From contig NZ_CANMNK010000004.1 of the NCBI RefSeq assembly GCF_947499265.1, forward strand, positions 124,001 through 188,000: a stretch of 64,000 nucleotides of DNA, in the 5' to 3' direction. The stretch's first letter is position 1, and every line of letters begins with the position of its first letter. This document shows, piece after piece, positions 3,918-46,040 of the stretch. This DNA is from an uncultured Roseobacter sp. GTDB taxonomy: Bacteria; Pseudomonadota; Alphaproteobacteria; Rhodobacterales; Rhodobacteraceae. The notes under the pieces were generated by a model. It was given only the letters and a program-made list of their open reading frames with translations. It searched no databases and was not told the origin of the DNA. The position numbers and the translations under genes are program-made.

Positions 3918-4829
3918 TTAAATTTCTTTCGTAACAGTTGCGTGAGAATTTTTAACAAGGTGTTTCGCCGCCGCCGCTCGGATGCCGCGGCTGAGGGGCG
4001 CAAGAGCGTCTGACATCAGCCGGCTGGTTTGCCAAAAAAGGTCTACATCCAAGGGTTTATCCGGCAGCAAGGGGCAAAGCGTGCCATGATCGAGCTGCTG
4101 TTGCACGAGGGGGAGCGGGTTGAGCCCCCACCCCAGTCCGGCACGGGCCGCATCGATGAACGCGTGGGTGGAGGGCAGCTGATGCGCCGGCGGTGTCAGC
4201 TTTTCCCCGGTGATTTGCGTGATCCACCGATGTTGCAGTGCGTCCTTGGCGTTGAAGGTCAGCACTGGTGCGCGCGCCAATGTGGCGGCGTTCACGCCCT
4301 GCCCAAACCACGTTGACATAAACGCGGGGCTTGCGGTTGCGATGTATCGCAATGCGCCCAAGGGATGACAATTGCACCCGGACACCGCCTGTGCCGCACC
4401 CGTCACCGCCGCGCTGACCGCCCCCCGCAACAGCCAGTCGGTTGACGTGTCCTGATCATCAATCACCAGGTCAAAGAGCATGTCGCCAGCGCCCATCAGG
4501 CCCGGCACGAACCATGTTGCAAGGCTGTCGGCATTCACCGCAAGGCGCACACGCGGCGCGGCCTTGGCCGATCCGGGCGCGATGTCGGCCAGGACATGGG
4601 ACTCCAGCAACGCGATATCCTCCGCATGCCGGGCAAGCTTGGTTCCGGCGGCGGTCGGGGTGCAGGGCTGGCCACGGTTGACAAGTGCGGTACCCATTCG
4701 TTCTTCCAGCGCCTTGATGCGTTGCGAAATGGCAGAGGGCGTCACGTTCAGGTGTGCCGCCGCCGCATCAAAGCTGCCGTGACGCACGATTGCCGACAAA
4801 GCGGCCAGTTGACTGGGGTCAATCGACAT
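3918..4829 (-). CDS. argP: LysR-family regulator ArgP (IciA), activator of the amino-acid exporter
   Basis: The 303-residue protein has an N-terminal winged HTH (LAALSAIVRHGSFDAAAAHL with TPSAISQRIKALE) at residues 7-60, followed by the periplasmic-binding-like effector domain. The start MSIDPSQLAAL and the divergent LysE/ArgO gene are typical of ArgP, which senses lysine and arginine and controls the exporter. It acts as a DNA-bound tetramer in the cytoplasm. The gene is divergent from the exporter gene with an 89-base gap that should hold its binding site. Confidence 0.88.
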   Translation of the reverse strand: MSIDPSQLAALSAIVRHGSFDAAAAHLNVTPSAISQRIKALEERMGTALVNRGQPCTPTAAGTKLARHAEDIALLESHVLADIAPGSAKAAPRVRLAVNADSLATWFVPGLMGAGDMLFDLVIDDQDTSTDWLLRGAVSAAVTGAAQAVSGCNCHPLGALRYIATASPAFMSTWFGQGVNAATLARAPVLTFNAKDALQHRWITQITGEKLTPPAHQLPSTHAFIDAARAGLGWGLNPLPLVQQQLDHGTLCPLLPDKPLDVDLFWQTSRLMSDALAPLSRGIRAAAAKHLVKNSHATVTKEI

Positions 4830-4839
4830 TAGCTATGCT

Positions 4840-4875
4840 TAATCATCCTCAGTTTATTTAATTTGAGTAATCATC
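4840..4875. promoter_or_regulatory. Direct repeats in the argP/lysE divergent promoter
   Basis: TAATCATC occurs at 4840-4847 and again at 4868-4875, with an AT-rich stretch between them that includes a short CTCA...TGAG inverted repeat. The location between a LysR gene and its likely target fits an ArgP binding region, but the repeats have not been matched to a known site. Confidence 0.4.
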
Positions 4876-4918
4876 TGACCCTCTCTAGTCAATGCGTCAC
4901 CCTTCGCGGAGATACGGC

Positions 4919-5518
4919 GTGCTTGATACCTTTCTTCCCGGCTACTTTCTGAGCCTCTCGCTGATCGTGGCCATTGGCGCGCAAAACGCCTTTGTGCTGC
5001 GGCAGGGGCTGCGGCGTGAGCATGTCTTCTGGGTCTGCCTGACCTGCGGGGTCTCAGACGCTATCCTGATTGCGGCGGGTGTTGCGGGTTTCGGCACATT
5101 GGCCGAGCGCGTCCCGTGGTTCGAGACCGCGATGCGCTACGGCGGGGCCCTATTCTTGCTGTGGTACGGATGGCGCAATGCGCGCTCTGCCTGGGCGGGC
5201 GGGCATGCCCTGCAGGCGGATGCAGGCGCGCGCAGACCGTTGATGCCCACCTTGTTGACCTTGCTGGCGCTCACCTGGTTCAACCCGCATGTCTATCTGG
5301 ACACGGTTGTCCTGATCGGGTCGATCTCCGCGCAATATGACAATCGGCTGGTCTTCGGTACAGGCGCGGTTCTGGCCAGCATCAGCTTTTTCTTTGCCTT
5401 GGGATATGGTGCGCGGGTCCTCGCCCCCCTTTTCGCGCGGCCTTCCAGCTGGCGCGTGTTGGACGGGTTGATCGCCTGCACCATGTGGGCCATCGCGGCG
5501 GGATTATTGTGGGCATAA
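4919..5518 (+). CDS. argO: LysE/ArgO-family amino-acid exporter
   Basis: This inner-membrane protein of 199 residues carries the family features: an N-terminal FLPGYFLSLSLIVAIGAQNAFVL segment split by the conserved GAQNAF motif, several hydrophobic helices, and TWFNPHVYLDT, matching the LysE NPH-Y-D block. It exports basic amino acids such as arginine or lysine. GTG at 4919 has GGAG seven bases upstream and is preferred; an in-frame ATG at 4892 would add nine residues without a ribosome site. ArgP is encoded divergently and is the expected activator. Confidence 0.88.
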   Translation: MLDTFLPGYFLSLSLIVAIGAQNAFVLRQGLRREHVFWVCLTCGVSDAILIAAGVAGFGTLAERVPWFETAMRYGGALFLLWYGWRNARSAWAGGHALQADAGARRPLMPTLLTLLALTWFNPHVYLDTVVLIGSISAQYDNRLVFGTGAVLASISFFFALGYGARVLAPLFARPSSWRVLDGLIACTMWAIAAGLLWA

Positions 5519-41997: not shown

Positions 41998-42284
41998 CCA
42001 ACAGTTGCTAGGGGACGCGCCCTCCCCGTGGACGAGGGTGAAGCCCGTCTTGCAAACTCTCTGGGAGAGAGTTTGAGGGCTGAACGGGCGGAGCCCCGGA
42101 TGGGCGCTATAAGGCCTATGCGAAACCGTTGAGTTGGGCCGCGCCCGACCCTGGGGCGGAGGCCGTCTTGCAAACTGTCCAGTGGACAGTTTGAGGCCGG
42201 AGCGGGCGGCAGCCCAGGGCAAACGCAGTGCGCCCTCCCGGGGGGAGGGTCGGGCGCGGCCCGAGGCGGGGCCTCGGGCGGCAT
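41998..42284. repeat. Intergenic repeat block with hairpins and a long inverted repeat
   Basis: The 387-base gap 41898-42284 holds no gene. A hairpin CAAACTCTCT/AGAGAGTTTG (42053-42075) and a second CAAACTGTCC/GGACAGTTTG (42171-42193) share flanks GCCGTCTTG before and GAGG..GGGCGG after, but their stems differ while base pairing is kept. GGGCCGCGCCCGACCC (42136-42151) is the exact reverse complement of 42247-42262, so the second hairpin sits in a 127-base inverted-repeat element that also holds CCCTCCC/GGGAGGG. It borders the AlbA_2 gene end. Confidence 0.75.
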
Positions 42285-42608
42285 TCACTCGGAAAAATGT
42301 GTAACCAAAAAATCTATTGCCGTGTCATTGTACAGAACCGGCACGGTAGATGACACCTGACCTGTTTCGTTAAACCTCTTTCTTTGTGCTGGATTTAGGA
42401 AGTTGTATACAGAGTAGGCTTGATCACCTTTCAGTCCGTTGTCTGCGATTGCCTTCCAGATCTTATTCTGCGTTGCGCCTGGAACACGACCAGCGACTTC
42501 TGAGGCCAAGACTCTGGCAGTGTAAGGATATTTCTCGAAAAGATTCTCCTCTACCAGTCTCTCAATTTCGACCGCTTCAACAGGAGTAACTTCGCCAATT
42601 AGTCGCAT
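42285..42608 (-). CDS. C-terminal half of an AlbA_2 protein, in a second frame
   Basis: The 107-residue frame has a winged-helix-like region: FEKYPYTARVLASEVAGRVP then GATQNKIWKAIADNGLKGD, followed by QAYSVYNFLNPAQRKRFNETG. I recall that many single-chain AlbA_2 (Schlafen-type) proteins end in just such a Y-P-x-T-A..V..VPG..QNKIWKAI..AYNF module after a RLxGEVTPV segment. Here this segment (MRLIGEVTPVEAVE) opens the frame. It overlaps the upstream ORF by 10 bases in frame -1, so it is either a broken end, a coupled second gene, or the far half of a frameshift product. Confidence 0.6.
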   Translation of the reverse strand: MRLIGEVTPVEAVEIERLVEENLFEKYPYTARVLASEVAGRVPGATQNKIWKAIADNGLKGDQAYSVYNFLNPAQRKRFNETGQVSSTVPVLYNDTAIDFLVTHFSE

Positions 42609-43327
42609 CGCTTGCGCACTTGCATTTTCTTTAAATGTCCCTCTTTCACGAACTTAATCCTTGCTGCCAAATCGCGATCCACTACGAAACGAGAACCGGC
42701 GTCGGTGGCTGCCAATTCAGCTTCATTCAGCAAAACTGCCTTGTTTGGACCTGCAACTCCAACCTGCTGGACGTGTTCAATCCATGCCGCATTCGTTTGC
42801 TCGATTCGAGAGTTAATAATTGCTTGAAGCTCCGGAGCTCTAACCACTTGAGTGCGCCCCCCATAGCGATAATAGATCGCTCCGTTTTTCAGTACTTGGT
42901 CTTTGCCCTCGTCTTTGGTGCAAATCACTGGTTTTTCGTTGGCAATCTCCACGCTAAAAGCGGCAAAGCTTTTTGCATCCTTTTGAAAACAGACGGCTTC
43001 CCAAGCGATTTCGCAAGAAAAGCAATCGTTTAAGAATCCGGTGATTTTTTCCGCGTCGAGGGTTTCGAAACTGTTTAGAGATTTTTGGGAAAGTCCTGCG
43101 GGTGTTCGTGGGCTATCAGTAACCCCAAAAACCAACAATCCACCCACGTTGTTTGCGAATGCTGCGAAATCTCTGAAGTAATCGGCCAAGGCCGCGAAGT
43201 TGAATTGTTCCTTGAATTCTAAGGTTCTGGATTCTCTTCTGGTAAGTCTTCCATTCGCCGTGGGAGTGATAATTTCTTCGACGGCATTTTGAAGATTGGA
43301 GACCGAAGTATTGGCATTTTCACTCAA
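42599..43327 (-). CDS. AlbA_2 (Schlafen-type) domain protein, N-terminal part
   Basis: The 242-residue frame has the AlbA_2 divergent-AAA signature: RRESRTLEFKEQFNFAALAD, FAAFANNVGGLLVFGVTDSP and NGAIYYRYGGRTQVVRAPEL. Such domains bind nucleic acid or nucleotides and occur in Schlafen nucleases, defence-related proteins and regulators. A TTG start at 43327 overlaps the parE TGA (TTGA), and the ribosome site AGGAG lies inside the last parE codons. It ends soon after a T TTA AAG heptamer, where the C-terminal half lies in frame -1. GC content is lower than in neighbours (27 of the 60 bases 42301-42360). Confidence 0.7.
   Translation of the reverse strand: MSENANTSVSNLQNAVEEIITPTANGRLTRRESRTLEFKEQFNFAALADYFRDFAAFANNVGGLLVFGVTDSPRTPAGLSQKSLNSFETLDAEKITGFLNDCFSCEIAWEAVCFQKDAKSFAAFSVEIANEKPVICTKDEGKDQVLKNGAIYYRYGGRTQVVRAPELQAIINSRIEQTNAAWIEHVQQVGVAGPNKAVLLNEAELAATDAGSRFVVDRDLAARIKFVKEGHLKKMQVRKRCD
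42629..42635 (-). other. T TTA AAG slippery heptamer at the AlbA_2 frame junction
   Basis: Read on the minus strand the bases TTTAAAG (42635 to 42629) stand in the X XXY YYZ phase of the upstream frame (CAT TTA AAG). A -1 shift here would join it to the downstream frame as H-L-K-E-N-A-S-A-Q-A-M-R-L-I-G and give a product of about 347 residues. Only the motif is visible; actual shifting is not shown. Confidence 0.45.
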
Positions 43328-45282
43328 ACATCCAACTCCTCCACGAACTTCGCGTTCTCCTGAATGTATTGATAGCGCAGCTCGGGCTTTTTTCCCATCA
43401 ACCGTTCGACCAGATCCCCCGTCTCACCGGGCATGTCCTCATCAATCGACACGCGGATCAGCTTGCGTGTTGCCGGGTCCATGGTGGTCTCTTTGAGGTC
43501 CTTCGCGTCCATTTCGCCCAGACCCTTGAACCGCGACACGTCAATCTTGCCCTTGCCGCCCAAACCTTTTTCGAGCCACTCGTTCTTCTCGATCTCATCG
43601 AGGCAATAGACCCGTTTGGCGCCCTGGGTCAGGCGGAAGAGCGGCGGGCAGGCCAGATAGAGGTGCCCTGCGTCGATCAAGGGCCGCATCTGGGTGAAGA
43701 AAAACGTCATCAGCAGCGAGGCGATATGCGCGCCGTCCACGTCGGCGTCGGTCATGATGATGATCTTGTCATAGCGCAGATCGTCAAGGTTGAACTTGGT
43801 GCCCATGCCGCAGCCAAGCGCCTCGCAGAGATCGCTGATCTCCGCGTTTGTGCCCAGTTTGGACGAGGCAGCCCCCAGCACATTGAGGATTTTGCCCTTG
43901 AGGGGCAGCAGGGCCTGCGTGTTGCGGTTGCGCGCGCCCTTGCCGGAACCGCCAGCGGAATCGCCCTCCACGATGAAAAGCTCAGTGCCTTCGCGGGACT
44001 TCGACGTGCAGTCGGTCAGTTTGCCGGGCAGGCGCAGTTTCTTGGTGGCTGATTTGCGGGCCGTTTCCTTTTCCTGACGGCGGCGCAGGCGCTCCTCGGC
44101 GCGCAACACGAGGAAATCGAGGATGGCGCCCGCGGATTTCGTATCCGCCGCCAGCCAGTTGTCAAAGTGGTCGCGCACCGCACCTTCGGTCATCTTTGCC
44201 GCCGCCTCGGTTGAGAGGCGGTCCTTGGTCTGACCGACGAAGGCGGGCTCCGCGATGAAACAGGACACCAGTGCACAGCCGCCTGAGATCAGGTCTTCCC
44301 GTGTGATCTGGCCGGCTTTCTTGTTGTTCGCCAACTCGCCGTAAGCCTTGATGCCCTTGAGGATCGCCGCCCAGAAACCTGCCACATGGGTGCCGCCCTC
44401 GGGCGTGGGCACGGTGTTGCAATAGGACTGGATGAAACCGTCGCGTGAAGGGGTCCAGTTAATGGCCCATTCCACCTTGCCCGCTGCGCCGAATTTCTCT
44501 TTGAAATCAACCGAGCCGGAGAAAGGGTTGTCTGCGTAGGTGGTTGCCGACCCCAGTGTTTCGCGCAGGTAGTCCGACAGGCCGCCGGGGAAGTGGAAGG
44601 TCGCTTCCTGTGGGGTTTCGCCATCGGCAATCGCGGATTTCCAGCGGATTTCGACGCCGGAGAAGAGGTAGGCCTTGGAGCGGATGGATTTGAAAAGCCG
44701 CGCGGGTTTGAAGCGGTGCGAGCCGAAGATTTCCGCATCGGCGTGGAAGGTCACGGTGGTGCCGCGACGGTTGGGGGCGCTGCCGACCTTTTCGACCGGA
44801 CCCAGCGGGATCCCGCGCGAGAAGCGTTGTTCGAAGACCTGCCTGTCGCGCGCGACCTGCACGACCATGGAATCCGACAGCGCATTGACCACCGAGGCGC
44901 CAACGCCGTGCAGACCGCCCGAGGTTTCATAGGCTTTGCCGGAGAATTTGCCGCCCGCGTGCAGGGTGCAGAGGATCACCTCCAGCGCTGATTTGTCAGG
45001 GAATTTCGGGTGCGGATCAATGGGGATGCCGCGCCCGTTGTCGCGGATGGTGATGGCGTAATCCTCATGCAGTTCCACCTCGATCCTGTTGGCGTGACCG
45101 GCAACGGCCTCGTCCATGGAATTGTCGAGAACCTCCGCCACGAGGTGGTGCAGGGCGCGCTCGTCGGTGCCGCCGATGTACATGCCGGGGCGTTTGCGCA
45201 CGGGCTCAAGCCCTTCGAGCACCTCGATGGAAGAGGCGTCATAGGCGGGGGCATCGGTATTGGACAGCAGATCATTGGGCAT
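43324..45282 (-). CDS. parE: DNA topoisomerase IV subunit B
   Basis: The 652-residue ATPase subunit decatenates chromosomes with ParC. The GHKL domain shows EGLEPVRKRPGMYIGGTDER, LDNSMDEAVAG, RDNGRGIPIDPHP and GGLHGVGASVVNALS; the Toprim part has FIVEGDSAGGSGKGARNR and TDADVDGAHIASLL. GAYL-type ParE features (KAYLFSG, REGTELFIVEGDS) separate it from GyrB, and the 3' end lacks the GyrB insertion. Start MPNDLLSNTD at 45282 follows AGAGG. The stop overlaps the TTG start of the AlbA_2 gene. Confidence 0.93.
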   Translation of the reverse strand: MPNDLLSNTDAPAYDASSIEVLEGLEPVRKRPGMYIGGTDERALHHLVAEVLDNSMDEAVAGHANRIEVELHEDYAITIRDNGRGIPIDPHPKFPDKSALEVILCTLHAGGKFSGKAYETSGGLHGVGASVVNALSDSMVVQVARDRQVFEQRFSRGIPLGPVEKVGSAPNRRGTTVTFHADAEIFGSHRFKPARLFKSIRSKAYLFSGVEIRWKSAIADGETPQEATFHFPGGLSDYLRETLGSATTYADNPFSGSVDFKEKFGAAGKVEWAINWTPSRDGFIQSYCNTVPTPEGGTHVAGFWAAILKGIKAYGELANNKKAGQITREDLISGGCALVSCFIAEPAFVGQTKDRLSTEAAAKMTEGAVRDHFDNWLAADTKSAGAILDFLVLRAEERLRRRQEKETARKSATKKLRLPGKLTDCTSKSREGTELFIVEGDSAGGSGKGARNRNTQALLPLKGKILNVLGAASSKLGTNAEISDLCEALGCGMGTKFNLDDLRYDKIIIMTDADVDGAHIASLLMTFFFTQMRPLIDAGHLYLACPPLFRLTQGAKRVYCLDEIEKNEWLEKGLGGKGKIDVSRFKGLGEMDAKDLKETTMDPATRKLIRVSIDEDMPGETGDLVERLMGKKPELRYQYIQENAKFVEELDV

Positions 45283-45431
45283 CGTGCTCGAACCTCTTTG
45301 TCTTGATTGCGCCTGAGTATGGCAGAGCGGGCAGGGCGGGGAAAGGGCTGCGCGCATGGCGTGTGCCTCTTTCCTTTCCTGGCCACCTGGGCTCTCATGC
45401 AGGGTGACATCCCTTAACGAAGTGTGAAGAA

Positions 45432-46040
45432 ATGACCTGGATCGCAACCGTTCCCTTTGAGCAGGCCACCGGCAAACTGAAGCGGCTTTATGAGCGCATC
45501 ACCGGGCCGGGCAACAACGTGGACAACATCATGATGGCGCATAGCCTGCGGCCCCACACGATGGAGGGGCATATGGCGATCTACAAACATGTGCTGCACC
45601 ATTCGGGCAATACGGTCCCAAAATGGTTTCTGGAAGTGCTGGGGGTCTGGGTCTCCGCGCTGAACAAGTGCGACTACTGCGAAAACCACCATTTTGCGGG
45701 CATGAAGCGCTTGCTGGGCGATGATGCGCGCGCAGATGCGATCCGGTCAGCGATTTCCGCAGCTGATGTTGAGGCCGCGCCGCTTGATACAGGCCAGCGG
45801 GCCGCGCTGCGCTATGCACAAAAGCTGACGTGCACGCCCGGTGACATGGAAATCACGGACGTTCAAAGCTTGCGCGCGGCCGGGTTTGATGACGGCCAGG
45901 TTCTGGAGATCAATCAGGTGGTGAGTTACTTCGCCTATGCCAACCGAACTGTCCTGGGGCTGGGATGCTCGACGGAGGGCGACATCATCGGGCTGTCCCC
46001 CGGCAATTCCGATGATCCGAACGACTGGGGCCACCGGTAG
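45432..46040 (+). CDS. Peroxidase-related AhpD/CMD-family protein
   Basis: The 202-residue protein has the AhpD-like core: NKCDYCENHHFAGMKRLL with a CxxC...H active site near residue 81, and the N-terminal IMMAHSLRPHTMEGHMAIYK. Such uncharacterised peroxidase-related enzymes belong to the carboxymuconolactone decarboxylase superfamily and likely reduce peroxides or disulfides in the cytoplasm. ATG 45432 follows a GAAGAA stretch. It is divergent from parE. Confidence 0.88.
   Translation: MTWIATVPFEQATGKLKRLYERITGPGNNVDNIMMAHSLRPHTMEGHMAIYKHVLHHSGNTVPKWFLEVLGVWVSALNKCDYCENHHFAGMKRLLGDDARADAIRSAISAADVEAAPLDTGQRAALRYAQKLTCTPGDMEITDVQSLRAAGFDDGQVLEINQVVSYFAYANRTVLGLGCSTEGDIIGLSPGNSDDPNDWGHR

Follow-up and report, generated by a model that had tools for sequence, protein, structure and literature searches.

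The locus lies in a 64,000-nt stretch of DNA from an uncultured Roseobacter sp.; this whole analysed stretch is called the window. Directly behind the core gene parE, two overlapping reading frames make up one gene of the AlbA_2/Schlafen family, and this split gene is followed by a GC-rich structured element (Table 1). The parE coordinates are those of a mechanical ORF, the true start being probably further in. The upstream frame of the split gene begins with a TTG that overlaps the parE stop, and the frame is lost after a linker. The GC content of the split gene was 46%, compared with 60% for the window, and it was the only low-GC coding sequence in the space behind parE, hereafter the slot.

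Table 1. Features of the locus and occupants of the parE slot with Pfam assignments.
Feature	Position	Strand	Basis
parE (topoisomerase IV subunit B), core gene bordering the slot	43324-45447	-	Pfam: DNA_gyraseB, DNA_gyraseB_C, Toprim, HATPase_c
parE 3' end GTGGAGGAGTTGGATGTTT, read as putative embedded ribosome-binding site GGAGGAG with overlapping start codons	43326-43344	-	Inferred
Upstream frame of the split gene, AlbA_2/Schlafen-like domain	42599-43327	-	242 aa; ORF list and Pfam
T TTA AAG heptamer	42635-42629	-	First T is third codon base, giving slippery phase
Downstream ORF, C-terminal domain of the same gene, -1 frame	42285-42608	-	107 aa; limits from L003 model
GC-rich structured element (149-nt), directly after the split gene	42137-42283	-	Fold and covariation
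AlbA_2	parE slot of the window		Pfam
HEPN_AbiU2	parE slot of L066, L086, L095		Pfam
SieB	parE slot of L056		Pfam
NYN	parE slot of L068		Pfam
HEPN_RiboL-PSP	parE slot of L104		Pfam
Mrr_cat	parE slot of L085, genome with small GC drop only		Pfam
DUF6338	parE slot of L054		Pfam
DUF2971	parE slot of L106		Pfam

The first-pass annotation of this DNA had described two overlapping frames, an AlbA_2 domain in the upstream one and a T TTA AAG heptamer in slippery phase, and all of these were confirmed by checking the ORFs, the domain and the codon position of the first T. SLFN_AlbA_2 (PF04326) was found in the upstream ORF with an E-value of 1.1e-13 and 52.2 bits against a Pfam cut-off of 25.3, and the same cut-off was also passed by all five relatives scanned. 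The downstream ORF had no Pfam match above cut-off, its single match (E 0.09) lying below its own cut-off. NCBIfam gave no match above cut-off and PADLOC gave none for the window piece; the AlbA_2 relatives matched the PADLOC candidate models PDC-S50 and PDC-S19 weakly. No relative was found in the phage and viral collections, where the viral scan used short peptide patterns and detects close relatives only. The plasmid relatives were four and remote, with an identity of at most 38%.

Relatives were collected by scanning one genome per species, which gave 32 loci from many phyla with identities of 43-59%. A single reading frame ran across the split point in 32/32 of them, and the single-chain homologues that the annotation had mentioned do exist. 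Moreover, 30/32 matched both pieces in the same frame, which indicates that the two pieces are one protein; the exceptions were L020, whose frame continues past the point and is broken about 30 residues later, and L027, which reaches the contig end. The joined gene has about 347 codons, and the single-frame relatives have mostly 331-350. At the split point, 31/32 relatives had a Phe, in a family consensus that was mostly Lys-Glu-Gly-x-Phe, and the only relative without it (L034) is locally divergent, its position being extrapolated. The upstream frame of the window gene has Leu there, and the -1 frame reads T-F-K-E-N, supplying the conserved Phe. The conserved Phe thus belongs to the downstream frame, and the loss of frame occurred in the preceding codon or immediately ahead of that codon. 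In addition, L020 and L025 carry frame breaks of their own elsewhere in the gene (in L025 near the C-terminus), and the AlbA_2 family is broken occasionally.

The closest relatives were 57-59% identical. The best-scoring one, L003 from Ruegeria arenilitoris (57%), is single-frame and also lies directly behind parE. In L004 (59%), from Sphingomonadaceae, the AlbA_2 relative at 3950-4963 lies divergent beside an rpsL-rpsG-fusA-like core operon (names by eye). Within the genus, 17/18 other genomes had no match to the split gene and the remaining one (G001) had a relative of 31% identity; in the wider family, 0/393 other genomes matched at E <= 1e-30. The allele was thus seen in one genome only, and a near relative that shares the split may have escaped notice.

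The C-terminal part of the window gene was no more diverged than in intact relatives, with a ratio of C-terminal to N-terminal identity of 0.76 compared with 0.66-0.93 in 28 intact relatives (L020, L025, L027 and L034 were left out), and so the frame loss looks young. The split itself is an ordinary frame loss. We hold with high confidence that this is an AlbA_2/Schlafen gene with a net loss of one base in the linker, most likely recently broken, a loss in the assembly only being included in this reading. Of the two explanations in the first-pass annotation, the recent indel was supported by the single-frame relatives, by the lack of a heptamer at that place in them and by the conserved Phe in the -1 frame, and the headline of programmed frameshifting was not supported. 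Uninterrupted relatives with no heptamer at the place, which the annotation itself had said would make this a plain frameshift mutation, are what was found. Two observations stand against a broken gene: the downstream frame shows no decay, and the break lies in a linker modelled with low confidence and flanked by two better-modelled parts, as would be expected of a functional split.

The lack of decay in the downstream part would also be seen if the base were absent only from the assembly and the gene were intact in the cell, which, as regards the frame, is a sub-case of the best explanation. The genome is a draft of 28 contigs and the split point lies among short runs of A and T. However, these runs have just 3-4 bases, and runs of three to four bases are short for common read errors. 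The genome was also 100% complete with 0.13% contamination, although these values are silent on base accuracy. An assembly error is considered unlikely. In a functional split gene, coupled re-initiation on the overlapping ORFs would yield the AlbA_2 part and the C-terminal domain as separate chains; such an arrangement is very improbable. The downstream ATG (42608) does lie within the upstream ORF, 10 nt from its end, and the downstream ORF spans the C-terminal domain, with the break in the low-pLDDT linker of the L003 model; yet this layout was found at this point in 0/32 relatives, and inspection by eye showed no Shine-Dalgarno stretch ahead of 42608.

Programmed -1 ribosomal frameshifting at T TTA AAG, which would yield both a full-length protein and a short one with AlbA_2, is barely credible: the heptamer does lie in the right phase within the overlap, with both frames open and with AGAGGG a few bases 5' of it, but all 32 relatives are single-frame at the point, TTTAAA was in phase there in 0/32, and a slip would put Leu where 31/32 have Phe. 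Some in-phase heptamer was found within 10 codons of the split point in 7/32 relatives, none at the same place, so heptamers of this kind carry no signal in the family. The heptamer together with the two-frame layout was kept in 0/32 relatives, the nearest of which are only 57-59% identical. The AGAGGG that could be taken for a Shine-Dalgarno stretch codes for Lys-Glu-Gly, at the same place in 25/32 relatives. No stimulatory stem-loop was found in the 101 nt at 42640-42540, the only stretch folded and folded without pseudoknots, which were similar to shuffles (z -0.11). For the split-gene stretch, four X XXY YYZ strings (Y = A or T) were counted over all phases and one in slippery phase. Heptamers of this kind occurred in phase 90 times per 10,442 codons in the 32 relatives, an expectation of about 0.16 per 18 codons, which is about the length of the frame overlap. 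The T TTA AAG heptamer is unremarkable and is weak evidence. It was judged probably to arise from Phe-Lys codons (TTT AAA) when these are read one base off-frame; L028-L030 have TTT AAA codons too, in frame. In programmed -1 frameshifting of the IS and dnaX types, X XXY YYZ stands in phase. The window gene resembles them in its in-phase X XXY YYZ and differs in that no stimulator and no conservation were found and the relatives are single-frame.

An AlphaFold model of L003 was made from an alignment of 27 rows (mean pLDDT 79.8, pTM 0.58). In this model, residues 218-255 form a linker of low confidence that contains the split point. It is preceded by the AlbA_2 part and followed, from about residue 257, by a small, confident C-terminal domain, the candidate winged-helix-like end of the first-pass annotation, to which no library searched gave a name. 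Foldseek with this model found 19 PDB chains at E <= 0.001, of which 15 were Schlafens; the others were DIP2311 (two, including the best match), one RecG-related protein and SAMD9. SLFN13, SLFN5 and SLFN11 were among the matched Schlafens. The query-normalised TM values were low, 0.21-0.28 for the Schlafen matches and 0.21-0.30 over all 19. By way of L003, the predicted fold is of the Schlafen type. Furthermore, E26 and E31 of L003, which may correspond to the Schlafen active-site Glu pair, were invariant in 27/27 and both are present in the window gene. The intact protein may act as a Schlafen-like RNA nuclease. A putative defence role for the split gene fits its family and its neighbourhood. 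Compared with proteins having a Schlafen N-domain, the window ORF is alike in passing the PF04326 cut-off and the L003 model in matching Schlafens, but the window protein differs in being short and bacterial, in its unnamed and out-of-frame C-terminal domain, and in the low TM values.

The slot behind parE was compared among 18 genomes of the genus, the window's own genome included; G009 was left out, as parE was not found. Over the 450 nt behind parE, GC dropped by at least 0.08 in 17/18 genomes, compared with 0/19 behind lolD, the sole control gene, after which a conserved gene comes next. DNA was counted as alike where at least 200 of the 450 nt aligned, and 0/153 genome pairs were alike in the parE slot, whereas 167/171 pairs were alike in the lolD control. 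L040/L038, the genomes that carry occupants L057 and L055, formed the one pair for which a more sensitive alignment extended into the parE slot, by about 217 nt. The genome lacking this drop was G016, which had no low-GC ORF in the slot. All 17 others had at least one ORF of at least 100 aa and at most 52% GC whose start was no more than 500 nt from the parE stop. This ORF was on the parE strand in 16/17; in G003 (L061) it was a 185-aa low-GC ORF on the opposite strand, and the forward ORFs there are probably antisense. There was usually one low-GC ORF per slot, with two consecutive ones in G006 and G017 and the split gene in the window. In the wider family, the GC drop behind parE was found in 26/59 genomes, each of a different genus. 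The slot directly behind parE holds a different, sometimes defence-like, gene in nearly every related species examined.

The Pfam scan of 36 ORFs from the parE slots of 33 genomes (excluding L111 and the reverse-strand ORF of G003) gave matches above cut-off in 9 of the 33 genomes and none for the other occupants; the families are included in Table 1. When 42 occupant proteins (32 from parE slots and 10 from ettA slots) were clustered, 37 clusters were obtained. The related pairs among them were five, all within the parE slot, which is too few to judge slot fidelity. In the genus, L055/L057 (46%) and L062/L064 (34%) were related as proteins, and therefore the occupants are not always unrelated. 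PADLOC on 42 slot genes gave matches to 36 families, a count made with no control set and in which the number of matching genes is not given, and which was therefore not taken as evidence for a defence role. In L102, the slot gene (851-1501) ends in a long Ala-Asp repeat.

The parE end itself contains start codons that overlap the stop, an ATG in GATGTTTGA and a TTG in TTGA. Many occupant ORFs can start exactly at these codons, and others start later. GGATG was present at the parE end in 42/44 genomes with a GC drop of at least 0.08 and in 5/28 with a drop below 0.05; for GAGGAG the values were 38/44 and 4/28, respectively, six genomes with an intermediate drop being left out of both counts. 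GGAGGAG with ATG or TTG looks like a ribosome-binding site, which suggests that translation of the next gene may be coupled to that of parE. A Shine-Dalgarno function as the only cause of the motif was rejected, as five reverse-strand occupants (L083, L086, L095, L097 and L105) have the motif too; therefore, common descent or co-transfer must contribute. In the loci searched, no att-like direct repeat was found at the two slot ends, and the parE-end motif had no second copy at the far end.

The structured element at the far side folded with a z-score of -4.67 against shuffles. A pattern search in the 18 slot sequences of the genus gave 13 candidates, from which L060 (a chance match) and L054 (a long variant) were dropped, and the remaining 11 were aligned. 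Changes on both sides were seen in 17/51 pairs, a number reached by 0/500 shuffles, and slid structures gave 1-4. No Rfam family reached threshold in the window. A model built from the 11 elements, with up to 150 candidates scored per genome, found at least 38 copies in 17/18 genus genomes searched. Thirty element loci were returned, and 29 remained after one incomplete locus was dropped; 27/29 had a 450-nt stretch of at most 53% GC starting within 150 nt of the element. The background for such a low-GC neighbour was 387/5000 random window positions, or 229/5000 with the slot excluded. Of these 29 loci, 14 were parE-slot copies, many of which had been used to build the model; among the 15 others, 13 had the low-GC stretch, 6 adjoined ettA and 4 adjoined rpsE/rplO. 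In 61 loci of other genera only 4 matches were found, and the element thus belongs mainly to this genus. A second, diverged partial copy of the element (42036-42099, 78% over 65 nt) lies about 40 nt beyond the first one.

The ettA slot showed a GC drop of at least 0.08 in 16/18 genomes, and 1/153 pairs were alike. Its occupants had a Pfam match above cut-off in 7/10 scanned, namely TIR, PIN, RelA_SpoT, DUF3800, DUF4145, DUF7946 and HTH-M78. The gap between rpsE and rplO, which from the gene order would presumably hold rpmD only, was 977-1375 nt in 10/19 genomes, and rplO was undetected within the fetched stretch of about 1.3 kb in the other 9/19. A 300-nt stretch of at most 50% GC was found there in 16/19, and 2/171 pairs were alike. 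In all three slots, different genes were found between conserved neighbours, as in an integration hotspot (alike pairs: parE 0/153, ettA 1/153 and rpsE-rplO 2/171, compared with 167/171 for lolD). The literature search, which covered titles and the beginnings of abstracts, gave no description of these slots. The slot is a genuine feature and, within the literature covered, an undescribed variant of an integration hotspot.

Further copies of the element were seen in the window's own genome. On contig C1 (L079, 3569-4697), a copy has a CutA-like gene on one side and ettA on the other (named by eye) and adjoins a DUF7946/DUF7947 gene; in other species this address holds TIR, PIN or DUF3800 genes. 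On contig C7 (L080, 2695-3617), a low-GC ORF antisense between rpsE/rpmD and rplO, within the ribosomal protein operon, adjoins a copy. On contig C2, a low-GC ORF (L082, 3392-4032; DUF805-like by eye) between sucD and sucA (by eye) adjoins another copy and is a possible fourth slot. On contig C21 (L081, 943-990), a fragment of the element lies between two coxM/coxL-like genes (by eye), and no low-GC ORF was seen there.

Taken together, the parE end may supply a Shine-Dalgarno-like stretch and start codons for the next gene, and an incoming promoterless ORF would be translated by coupling to parE. The AlbA_2 gene is the present occupant of a slot whose occupant is replaced often. Replacement would probably take place by homologous recombination in the conserved flanks, namely parE and, at the opposite end, the structured element. 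Gene transfer agents are known from relatives of this host and could carry pieces of the size of the slot inserts. It is also conceivable, although doubtful, that the parE, ettA and rpsE-rplO slots and the 149-nt element form one dedicated and undescribed system that rotates single defence genes expressed from core operons, in which the element would be the exchange site or substrate and the AlbA_2 gene a cassette caught broken.

Alternatively, a site-specific element (Tn7-like, integrase or integron) could use the region behind parE as its insertion target. Genomes that have the low-GC flank and genomes that lack it do not share the same parE end, and parE is a TniQ-directed attachment site of some type I-F3 CASTs (PMC11406308). 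However, the Pfam matches for the scanned slot ORFs included neither a transposase nor an integrase, the parE-end motif did not recur at the far side in the loci searched, and a GTTRRRY/RYYYAAC box was present in 0/11 elements. Site-specific insertion is improbable.

Behind parE, behind ettA and in the rpsE-rplO gap, the slots are fixed addresses that hold a different small gene species by species. Some of these genes belong to families known or suspected to act against phages, which would make a directed search for new defence genes possible there. Moreover, the slots are a clean case for single-gene exchange inside essential operons with no visible mobile element.

In integrons, a gene cassette consists of a promoterless ORF and then a structured element. 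The slots are alike in having a promoterless ORF followed by a structured element, but they have no attC R boxes (GTTRRRY or RYYYAAC) and are separate chromosomal sites with mostly one cargo each; identity with integron cassettes was rejected, as the R boxes were absent in 11/11 elements. Tn7-like elements (Tn7017) use parE as attachment site (PMC11406308). The same core gene is the landing place in both cases, but the slot inserts are about 0.5-1 kb, lie at or near the stop codon, and gave no transposase match in the occupants scanned. In hotspots without mobile elements, recombination at the core genes on either side has been proposed as the route of turnover (Oliveira et al. 2017, PMC5635113). 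The slots are similar to those hotspots in having variable genes between conserved core genes and no visible mobility genes. They differ in that a slot here is usually one ORF close to the core stop codon, and in that at least three slots occur in one genome, many of them adjoining a shared structured element.
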